Source: a virus. Taken from it: a DNA stretch of 22,792 nt. The stretch lies in IMG/VR virus record IMGVR_UViG_3300046007_001111, positions 1-22,792 of that record; one strand, written 5' to 3'. The notes under the pieces are model-generated. The model was not told the origin of the DNA, did not search any database, and saw only the letters and a list, made by a program, of their open reading frames with translations. Positions 3,642 to 22,616 of the stretch are shown here, in pieces. The number at the start of each line of letters is the position of its first letter. The stretch's first letter is position 1. Made by a program: the position numbers and the translations under genes.

Positions 3642-4436
3642 TTAACCTGGTCCATATCCGGATACTTGTCCTGGTGATATCCTTATTCCGCCTCCAACAC
3701 CCATGTTGGTTGCGTTTCCGCCCATACCGCCATAACCGCCATAACCACCAAGTGATGCTACGGGAGTAACGGCTGGGGCCTGTTGCGGCCGCATTCCATA
3801 CATCATGGCGTAATTGCCAAGCTGGCCAAGAGCCCCGCTATAAGCATTAGCAGCGCCCACCTGGCCAGCAGCCTGGGCAGCGCCCTGGCCCGTAATTAGG
3901 CCTGTTTGTTGCGCCGCAAAGTTTTGGCCAGCCTGAACGCCTGTATTGACAGACTGCTGCCCCATTCCTGCAATGTTGGCCAATAGGTTGTAAATATTTC
4001 CGCGCTCAGTTTGGAACCGATTAAATGACTGGCCGTATTCGGTGGATGCCAGACCTTGGCCATAATCTTCAAGAGCCCGCAAAGTGTTGCCGCTTAATGC
4101 CCCGCCGCCCACATTGGCTAATCGCTCGGTGGCCTGAGTTCCAAGTCGCCGGCGGAATTCCATGCTGGGGTCCAGATATTGCGCAAACTGATCCGGCCCA
4201 AATTGAGAAGTTAGAAACGGTTTCATCCGTTCTATGTCTTCGAGTGCTACTTGGCCAATCTCACGATATGGCGCCAGGTCTGCCCTAGAAATGTCAAACA
4301 TTTCCCGTTCTTGAGCCATAGCACGGTCGGCCGCAGCCGCTTGGGTTGCCGCCGCCTTTTTGGCAGCACTTGCGCCCATTGCTCCGCTAGCGACTGTCGA
4401 TACCGCTGCAATCGTTCCGGTTACTGGATCAGGCAT
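3642..4436 (-). CDS. P22 gp7-like DNA transfer/ejection protein
   Basis: 264 residues (P22 gp7 is about 229). The N-terminus has a small-residue hydrophobic stretch (about 7-25). An Ala/Lys-rich helix and a segment reading EREMFDISRADLAPYREIG (about 43-61) follow, a pattern I recognise from many podovirus ejection or internal virion proteins. The middle is rich in Gln, Ala and Gly (FNRFQTERGNIYNLLANIAG, about 130-149). The C-terminus is Gly/Tyr/Met-rich low complexity. AAGGAG lies 7 nt before the ATG, and the start overlaps the upstream gene's end by 8 nt. The role (released into the host envelope with the DNA) is taken from P22 gene order and the N-terminal pattern. Confidence 0.7.
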   Translation of the reverse strand: MPDPVTGTIAAVSTVASGAMGASAAKKAAATQAAAADRAMAQEREMFDISRADLAPYREIGQVALEDIERMKPFLTSQFGPDQFAQYLDPSMEFRRRLGTQATERLANVGGGALSGNTLRALEDYGQGLASTEYGQSFNRFQTERGNIYNLLANIAGMGQQSVNTGVQAGQNFAAQQTGLITGQGAAQAAGQVGAANAYSGALGQLGNYAMMYGMRPQQAPAVTPVASLGGYGGYGGMGGNATNMGVGGGIRISPGQVSGYGPG

Positions 4437-8796: not shown

Positions 8797-9426
8797 TTAT
8801 TTAAATGGTTTGCCAGTAATCCAGCTTACCAATGAATAGCGTGTTCCCTGTGTTACAGGTGTTACTTCATGTAATACATAAGACGGAAACAATGCTACAT
8901 GACCTTGTTCCCGTTTCATTATTTGTGGTTTATCTTCAAAATAAAGACATAAATCGCCGCCTTTATATGCGTTTGGATCAGATAATTGCAAAGTAAATGA
9001 TAATTTTCTAATTAAAGTTCCTGCCGCTGAATCGGTATGTTTTCCGTATTTTCCGTCAGGAGCAACATATTTTGTAAATTGAAATCCTTCGGTAGCACCA
9101 AATAAATCAAATTTAAAAAATCGTTCATTAAGATCCATAATTATGTCGGTCAAACGGCGATATGCCCAATTCAGATCATCGGATGGGTATAACCAAGCAA
9201 CATTAGATTTGCGAACTGAATTTTTACTACTGTCATTAGTTGTAGCTTGATGCTGAGTGTAAAAATTTCCAATAGAAATAATTTTTTCACATTCTTCTTT
9301 TGTAAAAGCATCGTTGCAATATGACCAATAATGAACAGGATCAAGGTTAAATGCCCAAGCTGGATTTGGAGTTTGTATCCCTTCTGGTTTTAAACGCATC
9401 GGTATGACTTCAGCAATTTTTTGCAT
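8797..9426 (-). CDS. 2-oxoglutarate/Fe(II)-dependent oxygenase (prolyl-4-hydroxylase-like)
   Basis: 209 residues. The iron triad is visible as H130-T-D132 in YGKHTDS and H186 in VLHEVTP. R196 (GTRYSLVSW) is placed to bind 2-oxoglutarate. GGDLCLYF (157-163) and GHVALFPSYVLHE (175-187) are the usual strands of the P4H/PKHD double-stranded beta-helix. Such enzymes hydroxylate protein side chains or other substrates and occur in aquatic phages with unknown targets. The gene follows the glycine-rich fibre gene by 8 nt. The ATG has no clear Shine-Dalgarno; an in-frame ATG at 9399 is an alternative. Four sampled 60-base lines have 25-38% GC against about 53% in a sampled line of the next gene, which suggests separate acquisition. 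The fold and cofactor call is firm; the substrate is unknown. Confidence 0.88.
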   Translation of the reverse strand: MQKIAEVIPMRLKPEGIQTPNPAWAFNLDPVHYWSYCNDAFTKEECEKIISIGNFYTQHQATTNDSSKNSVRKSNVAWLYPSDDLNWAYRRLTDIIMDLNERFFKFDLFGATEGFQFTKYVAPDGKYGKHTDSAAGTLIRKLSFTLQLSDPNAYKGGDLCLYFEDKPQIMKREQGHVALFPSYVLHEVTPVTQGTRYSLVSWITGKPFK

Positions 9427-16197: not shown

Positions 16198-17445
16198 TTA
16201 AGCTGCAACGCGGCAGGCGAGTTCGGGATAGAGCGGAGCCCAACCGTAGAGAACATCCAAACGGGTCGGGATCGAGTCGTTGTTGATCGTATATTGACGA
16301 ACAACACGGATCGAGAGACCGTTGTCCTTGTCGCTTGCACGGCCAGCGAAATGAACGCCATCAGGCAATTCGAGGTCGGCAGTTGCCAGGGTGAACGCAT
16401 TGCGGTGGAACACCAAGTTCTGCGGGCTAACCACACCGGTCTTATTGAACGGAGTGACAACCGCAGTCGAAGATGTCGAAAGTACGGACACATTCTGGAA
16501 TTGGCCAGCGGTGATGATGGCCGGTGAGACCGTCACAGATGCTGAACCACCAGAAGTAATCGTGACCGCAGAAGTAACCACGAAGTTACGCAATACATTG
16601 CCACCGTATGGCTGGCGGTTCTGTGGGTTGACTGCAAACACGCCAGCAATCTGGATCGTGTCACCAGCATTCAACACGGCATTAGCAGTTGCAGCCGCGA
16701 TGGTGATGGTGGATGTCTGAGCCCAGCCAGTTGTCAGCGAACCGGTGAAGGTCGTTGTGTTGGTGGACATCGTTGCGGTCGAATACGAACCGTAGGTATG
16801 GGACACAATGTTCTGGTCCATGTACCAGTTCATGCCGATGGTGTCGCGACCCATCATTCCCTTTTCGTACTGGCCAGAAATCGTTCCCTGGGGGTTGAAG
16901 AGACCTTTTAAGGAGCCAACAATCGAGGCGCCGGTAAAGGGATCAACAACGCAAGAACGCTTGCCATCACGGGGAGCGCCTTCGCCGTCCAGGTAAGCCT
17001 GGGCAGTTAAGAAGGTTGCGATGTCAGACGGTACAACACCAGCAGTTCCAACCGTGTTGGCGGTGTTGTCAACGGCCATCGTTGTGCCATCAAAGTCGAT
17101 TTTGTTGGCAATAGCAGCGATAGCTGGCTTCAACACGCGGTCCGAGAACATATCCAAAGACAACGAAAGGTCTTGGGTAGTGAATTGCGTGTCCACATGG
17201 AATTGGGTTGAAAGGGTAACCGGTGTGGATGTCTCGTTAAAGTCTTCCACATTCAGGGCTGGGCCAGTCGTACCAATGAAACGGCCAGGACGGCGGACAT
17301 TGACGGTATTACCAATCTTGGCACCGACAACCGCAAACTGGTCATCATAGTTACGGTCAACGCGACCCGTGAAGGTTAGTTCGTTTTCCAGGACCATCAA
17401 CGCCTCGTTGGTGATCATGGATATGGTTAGCAAGTTATTTGCCAT
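16198..17445 (-). CDS. Major coat (capsid) protein, P22 gp5 family
   Basis: 415 residues (P22 coat about 430). The N-terminus NNLLTISMITNEALMVLENEL and the HK97-fold E-loop region with NTVNVRRPGRF (about 46-58) are diagnostic of the P22 coat family. So are QFHVDTQFTTQDLSLSLDMFSDRVLKPA, the VVDPFTGASIVGSLKGLFN segment and the C-terminal NLVFHRNAFTLATADLELP. Residues ~225-320 correspond to the region of the inserted I-domain and following beta sequence, with a Thr/Ser-rich stretch (TATMSTNTTTFTGS). GGAGA lies about 8 nt before the ATG. It follows the scaffold gene after 34 nt, the usual arrangement for scaffold-assisted assembly. Confidence 0.93.
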   Translation of the reverse strand: MANNLLTISMITNEALMVLENELTFTGRVDRNYDDQFAVVGAKIGNTVNVRRPGRFIGTTGPALNVEDFNETSTPVTLSTQFHVDTQFTTQDLSLSLDMFSDRVLKPAIAAIANKIDFDGTTMAVDNTANTVGTAGVVPSDIATFLTAQAYLDGEGAPRDGKRSCVVDPFTGASIVGSLKGLFNPQGTISGQYEKGMMGRDTIGMNWYMDQNIVSHTYGSYSTATMSTNTTTFTGSLTTGWAQTSTITIAAATANAVLNAGDTIQIAGVFAVNPQNRQPYGGNVLRNFVVTSAVTITSGGSASVTVSPAIITAGQFQNVSVLSTSSTAVVTPFNKTGVVSPQNLVFHRNAFTLATADLELPDGVHFAGRASDKDNGLSIRVVRQYTINNDSIPTRLDVLYGWAPLYPELACRVAA

Positions 17446-17479: not shown

Positions 17480-18397
17480 TCACCTAATTTTCCCAGCGGC
17501 TCTCGCAGCTTTCCATTGCGAGAAAGTGCCATGAAATTGACGGTTGGAGTCCAGACTAATATCGGCTGGGTTTCCACCGGATTTCAGCGGGGTAATCGGT
17601 GCCGGAGCATTCGATTTCTTCGCCACAGGTTCCTTAACCACAGGTTTGGTTTCGAATTTCGATTCCAAACGCCCAATTGCACGCAGTTGAGAAGTGATGG
17701 ATTTCTCCGCCAATTCCCGAGCAAAATCAGGATTTTCGGCCAAGTAATACAGAACCTGGGGTCCCACATCACTTTCAATAATCGCATCCGTGACCGGTTG
17801 TGACACCGAGACATCACTAGACGCAATCATTTCGTCCCAATCCGGCAGTTCTTTTTTGGTGACCTCTAACCGCTCTTGGAATTTCTGCCGCATCCGCGAC
17901 TGTTCTTCCTCGGCCTTCCTTGCAAGTTCTGCTTGATCCCGCTCCCGCATCCTTTTATCAGTAGTCCACTCGGCCAGAGCCGCAGCCCACTCTTCAGCAT
18001 CATTAAATTGCGCCATTGTAGGTTTGGAGTCCGGTTCATCCGGTTTCGGCGGATTCACCTTTGCTTCCAAATCCTTTAATCGCGCTTCTAAGGCTTCTCG
18101 AGTTTTTCGCTCGCGTTCCGCTTCTTGGCGGGCCGCTTCGCGCTGCTTCGTCAGTTCCGAAAACCGCTTTTCAAGTTTTGGGTTTTGCTTCTTTTCACCT
18201 GTTGCAGCCTCTCCCTCGGCCTCTGATTCACTCCCATCTTGCTCGACAACCGGCTCCGCATCCGCGGCCTCAGTTGGAGTTTCTGGCTGGGCTAAACCAA
18301 GTTTTTTTGCCTGGAAATCAGCTAAATTTTCACTCGTTACCAGGTTCGCAGCTTGTTTCCTTACTGGCTCCTGGCTTACTTCTGCTACTTCAGACAT
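17480..18397 (-). CDS. Scaffolding protein, P22 gp8-like
   Basis: 305 residues, against 303 in P22. It is highly charged and helical. Residues ~45-70 are an acidic Glu/Ala/Ser segment. Residues ~70-120 form a Lys/Arg/Glu-rich coiled coil (KLEKRFSELTKQREAARQEA). The C-terminus is short and basic (GTFSQWKAARAAGKIR), like the helix-loop-helix by which P22 scaffold binds coat. It lies between portal and coat, the P22 gene 8 position. GGAG stands 7 nt before the ATG. It would direct procapsid assembly and portal incorporation and then leave. Sequence similarity is mostly compositional; size, order and architecture carry the call. Confidence 0.82.
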   Translation of the reverse strand: MSEVAEVSQEPVRKQAANLVTSENLADFQAKKLGLAQPETPTEAADAEPVVEQDGSESEAEGEAATGEKKQNPKLEKRFSELTKQREAARQEAERERKTREALEARLKDLEAKVNPPKPDEPDSKPTMAQFNDAEEWAAALAEWTTDKRMRERDQAELARKAEEEQSRMRQKFQERLEVTKKELPDWDEMIASSDVSVSQPVTDAIIESDVGPQVLYYLAENPDFARELAEKSITSQLRAIGRLESKFETKPVVKEPVAKKSNAPAPITPLKSGGNPADISLDSNRQFHGTFSQWKAARAAGKIR

Positions 18398-18417: not shown

Positions 18418-18433
18418 CCGATGATCCCATCGG
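18418..18433 (-). other. Perfect hairpin in the scaffold leader
   Basis: On the minus strand CCGATG-GGAT-CATCGG forms a perfect 6-bp stem with a 4-nt loop. It lies between the putative scaffold promoter and the scaffold Shine-Dalgarno, about 20 nt before the start codon. Only a broken T tract (GTTTATTCTT) follows, so it is a weak terminator at best. A 5' stabilising or processing hairpin is the alternative. Confidence 0.55.
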
Positions 18434-18445
18434 TAGGTTTAAGCT

Positions 18446-18474
18446 ATTAGAAACCGTTTCTTGATAGATGTCAA
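18446..18474 (-). promoter_or_regulatory. Sigma70-like promoter for scaffold/coat with shared spacer element
   Basis: Minus strand: consensus -35 TTGACA at 18469-18474 (overlapping the portal stop), a 17-nt spacer, and -10 TCTAAT at 18446-18451 (5 of 6 matches to TATAAT). The spacer's last 11 bases, AAGAAACGGTT, are identical and in the same register as in the terminase promoter at 22326-22354. The flanking AGAAAC-N-GTTTCT is a perfect palindrome at 18449-18461. This would give separate expression of scaffold, coat and decoration protein. Confidence 0.65.
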
Positions 18475-20722: not shown

Positions 20723-22027
20723 TCACCCCATCCATGAGCCAGCCGGCTGGTAAGTTGCCCGTTTTCCTGTCGATTTGCGGGGCTCGTTTACCACCAGGCC
20801 AATATACCTAAACGCATCCGCACCATGGGAATAAATGTCGTGCAAAGGCGTCTTGGAAAACTGTTTAGTATCTGGGTCCACATCATACCGATAGTGGCGC
20901 AGACATTGTAGCCCTTGGTGGCAATTCTCTCGGTCGAAATAGCATTTCCCAAACATAGTTCGAGCGGCGTTGATTGAGTCCGCAATTGGTGTCCTTGGCA
21001 CAATCTGGACCTTGTAGCCCGCGGCCCTGACTATGTCGGCAATCGAGCGGCCAGACGCAGCCAGGGTCGAGTTCTCGGCATCATGGGGCAGCCAAATGGT
21101 GTCGTAGTGATAGCCATACTTCTGCATCTCAGACATATACCAGGACATCGTCTTCTGACTGTCTTCCAGGTATCTGATCAGCCGGATCTCAAACCCAATA
21201 AATTGCACAAACCAGATGGCCGTGTTGTCAGCCCAGCCCAGGTCGAAGACCGCGTGAACCGGTTTGATGGCGTCATATGGGACCTTAGTGAGCCTACCGT
21301 CCAGGTCTGCCATGGTTATCTCGTTGGCGAACACGGCGCCGTCCACGGTCTTGCGGCAGATGCCTTCCCAGACCATGTTGTAGGCCTCGATGTCTCGGAC
21401 CTGGAGGTTGTCCTTTTCCTCGCGCAGCGTCTGCGGAAACCAGGGGTTGTCGCGCCAGGTAATCTTTTGCACCACCGCGCTGGGCGGCGGCGAGACCACA
21501 AACCGTTGATAGGTTTCGTCCGTCTCAAGTTCTGGGTTGAAGGTGACCCAGATTTCGCTGCCGTCCTTACGAATGGTCGGGATCAGCACATTCCAAGAGG
21601 TTTTGGAAACAGTCTGGGCTTCCTCGACCCAACAGATATCCACACCTTCAAAGGATTTGACATTGGTGATGTTGTTTTTCAGCCCGATAAAAAAGAATTC
21701 CGAGCCATTCTTGCCGCGGATCGAGGTCTGAGTTATCTCGTAGAACGATTCCAAACCCAGAGCAATGATCTGGTCGGTCAGCAGCTTGTGGACCGAGTCC
21801 TTGATTGATACCTGGAATTCTCGAGCGCAGAGAACACGGAGCGGGTCTTTGGCTGCCTTGATCAAGAGAGCCCTGGCCACACCCCAGGATTTTGCACCGC
21901 CGCGGCCACCGTACAGGACCTTGTATCGGTTGGGCTCAAACAGGCACGCAAGTTTGACGGGGAATTCAGCTTTGGCAACGGCCTGCTGGAGTTGCTCTTG
22001 GTCGATTACTTCTGGCGCCTCGATCAT
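20723..22027 (-). CDS. terL: Terminase large subunit
   Basis: 434 residues. The packaging ATPase has Walker A GGRGGAKS at 40-47, Walker B VDICWVEEA at 129-137 with catalytic Glu 135/136, and coupling motif VTFNPE at 161-166. The C-terminal RNase H-like nuclease shows acidic positions D262 (FDLGWADNT), D316 (LPHDAEN) and D404 (HGADAFRY), all in expected contexts. It cuts concatemeric DNA and pumps it through the portal. P22 gp2 is about 499 aa. The ATG overlaps the small-terminase stop as ATGA, as is common for this pair. No truncation or missing catalytic residue is seen. Confidence 0.95.
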   Translation of the reverse strand: MIEAPEVIDQEQLQQAVAKAEFPVKLACLFEPNRYKVLYGGRGGAKSWGVARALLIKAAKDPLRVLCAREFQVSIKDSVHKLLTDQIIALGLESFYEITQTSIRGKNGSEFFFIGLKNNITNVKSFEGVDICWVEEAQTVSKTSWNVLIPTIRKDGSEIWVTFNPELETDETYQRFVVSPPPSAVVQKITWRDNPWFPQTLREEKDNLQVRDIEAYNMVWEGICRKTVDGAVFANEITMADLDGRLTKVPYDAIKPVHAVFDLGWADNTAIWFVQFIGFEIRLIRYLEDSQKTMSWYMSEMQKYGYHYDTIWLPHDAENSTLAASGRSIADIVRAAGYKVQIVPRTPIADSINAARTMFGKCYFDRENCHQGLQCLRHYRYDVDPDTKQFSKTPLHDIYSHGADAFRYIGLVVNEPRKSTGKRATYQPAGSWMG

Positions 22028-22290
22028 TCTTGTGGCTTAACAAACATGACCTGGATGCCGGAAAGGATCGGAGTTCCGTCCGAGTTCTGCATCTCAGTCG
22101 TCTGAACGGCCTTGCCATCCAAGCGGTCAATAACCTCTTTGACGGCCCAGGCTTCGCCTGTTTCCGCCTGCGTGATCAGTTGATTGACGATGCTTTCCAG
22201 CCTGTGCGGCTCTTGTACAAGCACTTTGCGGAGCTTGTCGTAGAACATCTTGCCTTTGACGGCATTTGTATTTCCTATCGGTGCGGCCAT
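22024..22290 (-). CDS. terS: Terminase small subunit (probable)
   Basis: 88 residues. It begins MAAPIGNTNAVKGKMFYDKLRKVL, a basic start of a kind common in small terminase-like phage proteins. It continues with a helical AETGEAWAVKEVIDRLDGKAVQTTE segment that is a recurrent signature of that group. It lies directly before and overlaps terL, the normal terS position. It would bind the packaging site and load the large subunit. At 88 aa it is much shorter than P22 gp3 (about 162). It is the first gene of the leftward block, with a weak Shine-Dalgarno (GAGA) but a candidate promoter about 36-64 nt upstream. Confidence 0.78.
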   Translation of the reverse strand: MAAPIGNTNAVKGKMFYDKLRKVLVQEPHRLESIVNQLITQAETGEAWAVKEVIDRLDGKAVQTTEMQNSDGTPILSGIQVMFVKPQE

Positions 22291-22325
22291 GTAGATTGTC
22301 TCAATCTATAAGTTCCTGATGCGCA

Positions 22326-22354
22326 ATGATAAACCGTTTCTTATTGCTTGTGAA
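22326..22354 (-). promoter_or_regulatory. Sigma70-like promoter for the terminase genes
   Basis: Minus strand: -35 TTCACA (22349-22354), 17-nt spacer, -10 TATCAT (22326-22331), each 5 of 6 matches to consensus. The spacer ends AAGAAACGGTT, the same bases in the same register as in the scaffold promoter. AAAC-N-GTTT at 22331-22339 is a palindrome abutting the -10. The predicted start of transcription is near 22320, about 30 nt before the terS ATG. Confidence 0.6.
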
Positions 22355-22372
22355 TCTATTCTTTGGTAAACT
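22344..22372 (+). promoter_or_regulatory. Sigma70-like promoter for the divergent small gene
   Basis: Plus strand: -35 TTGCTT (22344-22349), 17-nt spacer, and an extended -10 TGG-TAAACT (TAAACT at 22367-22372). Its -35 touches the -35 of the opposing terminase promoter at 22349, so the two polymerase sites are back to back. The small gene starts 26 nt after the -10. Confidence 0.5.
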
Positions 22373-22378
22373 GTTTAC
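22366..22378. promoter_or_regulatory. Palindromic operator candidate GTAAAC-T-GTTTAC
   Basis: A perfect 13-bp inverted repeat (6-bp arms, 1-nt centre) covering the -10 of the plus-strand promoter. Its core AAAC-N-GTTT recurs at 22331-22339, 37 bp away centre to centre, over the opposing promoter, and again in the scaffold promoter. This fits a dimeric repressor or activator site; no regulator is identified. Confidence 0.5.
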
Positions 22379-22397: not shown

Positions 22398-22616
22398 ATG
22401 AAAAAGATTGTCTTCTACTGTGGAGTTAATGATCAAACTGGTAACGCCTACTTTCGCAATGCGCCTCATTTCTTGTCTTTGGAGGATCACGAAAGGATCG
22501 CAGTTTTGAGTAAGGTAATTGCCGAGTTAACGAATCACCTGGAGTACACGGTCAAACGGGTTACTGCCGCAACGATTCAAGAAATTCGGACAAAACATCC
22601 GCGTGTTGCTGAGTAA
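22398..22616 (+). CDS. Small hypothetical protein, the only plus-strand gene
   Basis: 72 residues from the ATG at 22398, which has GGAG about 9 nt upstream and a candidate promoter before it. An upstream in-frame ATG at 22326 is less likely because it would lie upstream of the predicted promoter. The sequence MKKIVFYCGVNDQTGNAYFRNAPHFLSL followed by a helix (EDHERIAVLSKVIAELTNHL) and a basic C-terminus is protein-like but belongs to no family I recognise. I see no helix-turn-helix. It is transcribed away from the terminase block and could be a regulator or early gene by position only. Its 3' end overlaps the opposing gene by 56 nt. Confidence 0.55.
   Translation: MKKIVFYCGVNDQTGNAYFRNAPHFLSLEDHERIAVLSKVIAELTNHLEYTVKRVTAATIQEIRTKHPRVAE

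Follow-up and report, generated by a model that had tools for sequence, protein, structure and literature searches.

A palindrome fused to core promoter elements, the putative operator of a small winged-helix regulator, in a clade of uncultured P22-headed phages

The question raised by this locus is why two late promoters of one phage carry the same dozen nucleotides in the same position. The window analysed here is an entire virus record of 22,792 bases, a fragment whose end lies upstream of the terminase genes, leaving the early region outside it; its gene content is of the P22-headed phage type, with PHROG matches for large terminase, portal, scaffold and coat. As a preliminary description of the DNA had stated, AAGAAACGGTTT is present in two exact minus-strand copies (18462..18451 and 22342..22331), which close the 17-nt spacers of the scaffold/coat and small-terminase (TerS) promoters in identical register. 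The scaffold/coat promoter, TTGACA-17-TCTAAT (18446..18474, minus strand; -35 at 18474..18469, -10 at 18451..18446), reads TTGACA-TCTATCAAGAAACGGTT-TCTAAT on its strand and precedes the genes for the scaffold (17480..18397, minus strand; phrog_8865) and the P22-type major coat protein (16198..17445, minus strand; phrog_283). The TerS promoter, TTCACA-17-TATCAT (22326..22354, minus strand; -35 at 22354..22349, -10 at 22331..22326), reads TTCACA-AGCAATAAGAAACGGTT-TATCAT, was listed independently by a promoter scan and precedes the TerS gene (22024..22290, minus strand), which had no PHROG match and was assigned from position and conservation. The earlier placement of both promoters in short intergenic gaps is not wholly correct for the first of them, the -35 of which overlaps the portal stop codon. 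A third exact copy of the 12-mer was, as claimed, not found within the window, and its sole copy with one mismatch (4212-4223) is located inside a coding ORF.

The inventory of two copies was correct for the 12-mer and incomplete for the element, since a third site had been overlooked: the full palindrome GTAAACAGTTTAC (22366..22378) lies between the TerS promoter and a small divergent gene, X (22398..22616, plus strand, 72 aa), which begins shortly downstream of it. This second putative operator precedes the TerS copy by 37 bp, and the same spacing was found in 35/35 loci having both sites (overlapping contigs included). The core AAACGGTTT itself occupies 18451..18459 in the scaffold/coat promoter (minus strand; the spacer end plus the first base of the -10, within the 12-mer at 18451-18462) and 22331..22339 in the TerS promoter (minus strand; 12-mer at 22331-22342). 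Two further features of the window were recorded: a short hairpin, TAGATTG-AGA-CAATCTA, in the TerS leader (22308..22292, minus strand), immediately ahead of the TerS ATG and with a GGA farther upstream, whose stem appears to change in paired fashion among relatives and which may place the ribosome site near the start; and a phage-encoded 2OG-Fe(II) oxygenase-like protein (8797-9426, minus strand; phrog_61).

Conservation of the element was followed through 80 loci with related portals, in which the promoters were placed by gene order. The preliminary description had named the absence of the element from homologous promoters of related phages as evidence against it; it is present there. Every relative with a portal identity of at least 73% had the core in its scaffold promoter, where the 13 distinct promoter sequences, all of the form TTGACA-17-TnTAAT, followed the pattern TTGACA-N9-AAACRGTT-TnTAAT with minor departures only, the operator core reading AAACRGTTT. 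In the TerS promoter of the same relatives the core was more or less exact, as AAACRRTT-TAYYAT or more decayed, the decayed forms of the 73-77% portal group being AAACAGTT-CACAAT and GAATAGTT-TACATT. Neither promoter carried the element in relatives with a portal identity of about 69% or below. The leading AAG of the 12-mer differed among relatives and between both promoters, and the centre base of the palindrome was free, with A, C, G and T all occurring, as in an odd-centred palindrome. The conserved unit is, therefore, the 9-bp palindrome AAAC-N-GTTT fused to the -10 rather than the 12-mer; the palindrome had been noticed within the element originally described, and the AAG proved incidental. 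The longest form of the putative operator is GTAAAC-N-GTTTAC, inside which the 9-bp palindrome lies.

These comparisons also bear on the simplest explanation of the shared 12-mer, a chance likeness or the recent origin of one promoter as a copy of the other. In its favour, exact identity over the whole 12-mer is peculiar to the phage of the window and the AAG is unconserved, but the two promoters differ outside the core and relatives nevertheless keep the core at both. Intergenic exact matches to AAACNGTTT amounted to 19 in eight element-bearing records against about 0.75 expected (summed per-record dinucleotide-shuffle means), a count based on rough gene calls that is an undercount where spurious ORFs made promoter sites coding, and that in the window includes three sites of which two (21946 and 21980, reversed coordinates) truly are coding, within an open-ended ORF at 1-2229. 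In ten more distant relatives lacking the element no intergenic exact match was present (about 0.64 expected from shuffles). The claim that the match exceeds chance was borne out by this difference and by the recurrence of the core in the relatives' promoters; on these sequence comparisons chance or copying is refuted for the core, holds only for the extra AAG and is hardly credible as a general account. An exact search for AAGAAACGGTTTNTNAT across the collection gave at least 119 stretches, a number of the order expected by chance for 15 specified bases in so large a collection, and was set aside.

A scan of longer relatives placed the palindrome at early promoters as well. It was found at the leftward early promoter PL of the SSB/exonuclease/recombination operon and at the rightward early promoter PR (TTGCAAACNRTTT), where the site is on the -35. 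At PL the site is on the -35 in several groups of relatives, and in group A it stands against the -10 (TTGnnn-17-TACTAT); sites of the early promoters are often fused to the -35 in the form TTGCAAACNGTTT. Between PL and PR a long stretch without a convincing gene was observed (about 1050-1760 in contig L299 and about 21000-21589, reversed, in record G006), carrying a block, CTGACCGTACTCCGCACGATAG, common to distant groups; it had no above-threshold Rfam match and is possibly a non-coding RNA or a replication origin.

The position of the element between the -35 and -10 of late promoters resembles that of the Q-binding element of phage lambda, which also lies in the late-promoter spacer between these two hexamers, and one gene of a relative, Xanthomonas phage PBR31, bears the annotation 'antiterminator Q'. 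A binding site for a Q-type antiterminator is, nonetheless, very improbable: profiles of Phage_antitermQ (PF06530) and Antiterm (PF03589) matched 0/9 records (the eight element-bearing ones and PBR31), no Q-family protein was found, and the element is palindromic and present also at early promoters and at the promoter of the candidate regulator described below.

This candidate, HTHm, is a protein of 77-88 aa with weak winged-helix matches, whose gene lies in the rightward early cluster, just ahead of a DUF5856 gene. Profile searches recovered it at full length in 13 of 15 element-bearing records, truncated in one (G004) and missing in another (G005, an incomplete record in which its neighbouring gene was not found either), and did not find it in ten records that lack the element, the neighbouring gene being retained in several of these; this presence and absence follows largely one clade and so represents few independent events. 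The homologues form groups A to E, and those groups with operator sites span 41-100% identity. In groups B-E the HTHm ATG is directly preceded by AAACNGTT (sometimes TAACAGTT) and then TATAAT (one TACACT), that is, by a AAACNGTTTATAAT-like site at the regulator's own promoter, in which a TATAAT-like -10 is fused to the operator, the ATG follows a few nucleotides downstream and no good -35 is present. In group A the gap ahead of the ATG has the related GAACTGTTTATT, with only the variant GAACTGTTTATTATG as a site. In contigs L297, L299 and L303-L310 the operator and -10 are open in frame with HTHm and read QTVYN from an upstream ATG, and a longer HTHm form starting there is possible, in which the same DNA would be operator, promoter and coding sequence.

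Although the early region is absent from the window, contig L299 is 100% identical to it over 1,036 bp and then continues into that region, where it carries a group-B HTHm near 3.9-4.15 kb, beginning MKRRSKLSKDIL and preceded by AAACAGTTTATAAT, as well as PL and PR sites and a second winged-helix gene, HTH_39; by this identity, the phage of the window possesses HTHm. A GroES-like gene is also present in the early cluster, both in relatives and in L299 (4877-5179). At position 7940 of L299 (against 1036-1323 of the reversed window) about 286 bp are absent inside the large-terminase gene and the frame is broken, which is either a deletion variant or an assembly fault.

One group of HTHm proteins passed the cut-off of HTH_24 (PF13412) with 22.5 bits against 21.9, and the other groups shown scored below it; the best score against MarR profiles (PF01047/PF12802) was 17.7 bits, below the curated cut-offs of 24.6-27. 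No convincing relative emerged when solved structures were searched by sequence, and the AlphaFold model (mean pLDDT 57) was too poor for a fold search. HTHm resembles MarR/HTH_24 proteins in its weak matches to PF13412 and PF01047, and differs from them in that only one sequence passes a Pfam cut-off and in its size of about 80 aa, below the typical MarR length.

The conservation, together with a co-occurring winged-helix gene that has the same site ahead of its own start codon, gives good support to the idea that a phage regulator could bind adjacent to the -10 in both promoters; HTHm is the best candidate for this regulator. An unlikely alternative would assign the binding to HTH_39 (PF14090), the winged helix encoded in the PL operon, or to a host regulator. 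The distribution of HTH_39 nearly matches that of HTHm and the promoter of its operon carries a site, but a dedicated promoter with a site at the start codon exists only for HTHm (groups B-E); a host protein fails to explain why ten related phages lack the site, unless their hosts differ. As to the hosts, genome contigs gave only two distant matches, to a Legionella MAG and a Methylococcales MAG. TerS as its own repressor was also considered and is not favoured, its homologues (59-66% identity) being present in records lacking the element; autorepression by TerS is listed as reported for phage SPP1 in PMC6316719 (its reference 69).

In three contigs (L282, L283 and L284) the N-terminal half of HTHm is lost, and for two of them the TerS region is covered (L282 as L138, L284 as L169). 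In both, the upstream palindrome is decayed, with TGTAAATAGTTACACC replacing GTAAACAGTTTAC where close relatives retain AAACAGTTT, and AAACAATTT replaces AAACGATTT; the scaffold promoter site is intact in spite of the truncated HTHm (L138 and L169, the latter being G004). The association of truncation with operator decay is suggestive of a link, but the two contigs are close relatives and G004 lacks HTH_39 too. What is left of HTHm is its C-terminal 40 residues (L282 near 1815, L283 near 4127, L284 near 6406), directly following an ORF that by eye resembles a VRR-NUC-type nuclease and that seems to have replaced the RusA gene together with the HTHm N-terminus.

From the sites, their positions, their conservation and their co-occurrence with the HTHm gene we infer a binder, a mode of action and a timing. 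On balance, AAAC-N-GTTT is probably the operator through which HTHm represses early and late promoters alike, as well as its own gene. A single phage-encoded regulator, with HTHm as the best candidate, would recognise the palindrome over the -35 of early promoters (TTGCAAACNGTTT), or against the -10 in PL of group A; at the scaffold, small-terminase and its own promoters, where the site abuts and enters the -10, bound HTHm would block RNA polymerase. With the ATG a few nucleotides past the -10, the HTHm mRNA would be leaderless and its gene autoregulated, and one feedback loop would join the capsid, packaging, recombination, replication and regulator genes. Autoregulated repressors typically have this layout, with palindromes over the -35 or -10 of good promoters and a further one where the regulator gene itself starts. 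The same palindrome was found over core promoter elements at several promoters per genome and at the regulator's own promoter in groups B-E (as a variant in group A); repression is favoured since the overlapped promoters are otherwise good and the regulator's start has a site. The joint control of packaging and capsid genes originally proposed would hence be part of a regulon that reaches beyond late genes to take in both early promoters, the promoter of the regulator itself and the small divergent gene.

HTHm might instead activate the promoters whose -10 is abutted (scaffold, TerS and its own) and repress the early ones covered at the -35. Such a double role would account for the constant register to the -10 at the scaffold, TerS, own and group-A PL promoters, for the early sites on the -35 in most groups and for the own promoter lacking a -35, which would also fit positive autoregulation. 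We regard it as doubtful: the scaffold promoter has the consensus TTGACA-17-TnTAAT in every element-bearing relative and should need no activator, a palindrome centred beside the -10 leaves RNA polymerase little room, and PL of group A, though early, shows the late register. Overlap with either the -35 or the -10 fits occlusion by a repressor better than a fixed-register activator.

The repressor favoured here is not readily connected with lysogeny by integration, a role rejected in the absence of an integrase from the eight element-bearing records. Neither a serine recombinase nor a ParA-type ATPase was found in these records, two of which have overlapping ends (123 and 127 bp), a sign of complete circular assemblies. 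With none of the three functions found, the repressor would more probably serve lytic timing or feedback than maintain lysogeny in the classical manner. A more specific and rather speculative version is that in this integrase-less P22-headed clade one 9-bp palindrome and a winged helix of about 80 aa form an early-to-late switch, in which the palindrome is fused to the -35 of early promoters and to the -10 of late and regulator promoters, the early promoters would be repressed, the late ones activated or delayed, and the regulator made from a leaderless, self-controlled mRNA.

Among known systems, lambda Cro/CI is similar in that a single palindromic operator serves the two divergent early promoters and also the regulator's promoter, and the lambda cI mRNA from PRM is leaderless, as predicted for HTHm. 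In contrast, the late promoter of lambda is not known to be a target of Cro/CI, the operator sequences are unrelated, and no tyrosine integrase, serine recombinase or ParA-type ATPase was found here. The operator of P22 Arc lies between the -35 and -10, and Arc is likewise a small autoregulating phage repressor, from the phage whose type of head genes is found here; it differs in being a ribbon-helix-helix protein of the immunity region, whereas the present candidate is a winged helix whose putative operators are located at promoters of capsid, packaging and early genes. The reference list of PMC3741392 includes, as number 76, a work on autogenous regulation by Arc.

Downstream of the scaffold promoter and separate from the operator, the scaffold leader has an RNA hairpin, CCGATG-GGAT-CATCGG (18418..18433, minus strand). 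This 6-bp stem occurs in relatives with and without the operator (CCNNTN-loop-NANNGG) and kept 6/6 pairs in 21 distinct sequences with 25 double-changed cells; its covariation score was 0.54, compared with 0.12 for shuffles and no more than 0.05 for slid controls, and it had no Rfam match. The P22 scaffolding protein limits its own synthesis post-transcriptionally, which makes the hairpin a natural candidate for such self-control; it is, as a lead only, a possible site of translational control of scaffold synthesis.

These results provide an uncultured phage clade with a concrete regulon, in which the operator is defined and a candidate for the regulator is named. Its logic differs from that of lambda and P22 in that the capsid and packaging promoters share their putative operator with the early promoters and with the regulator.
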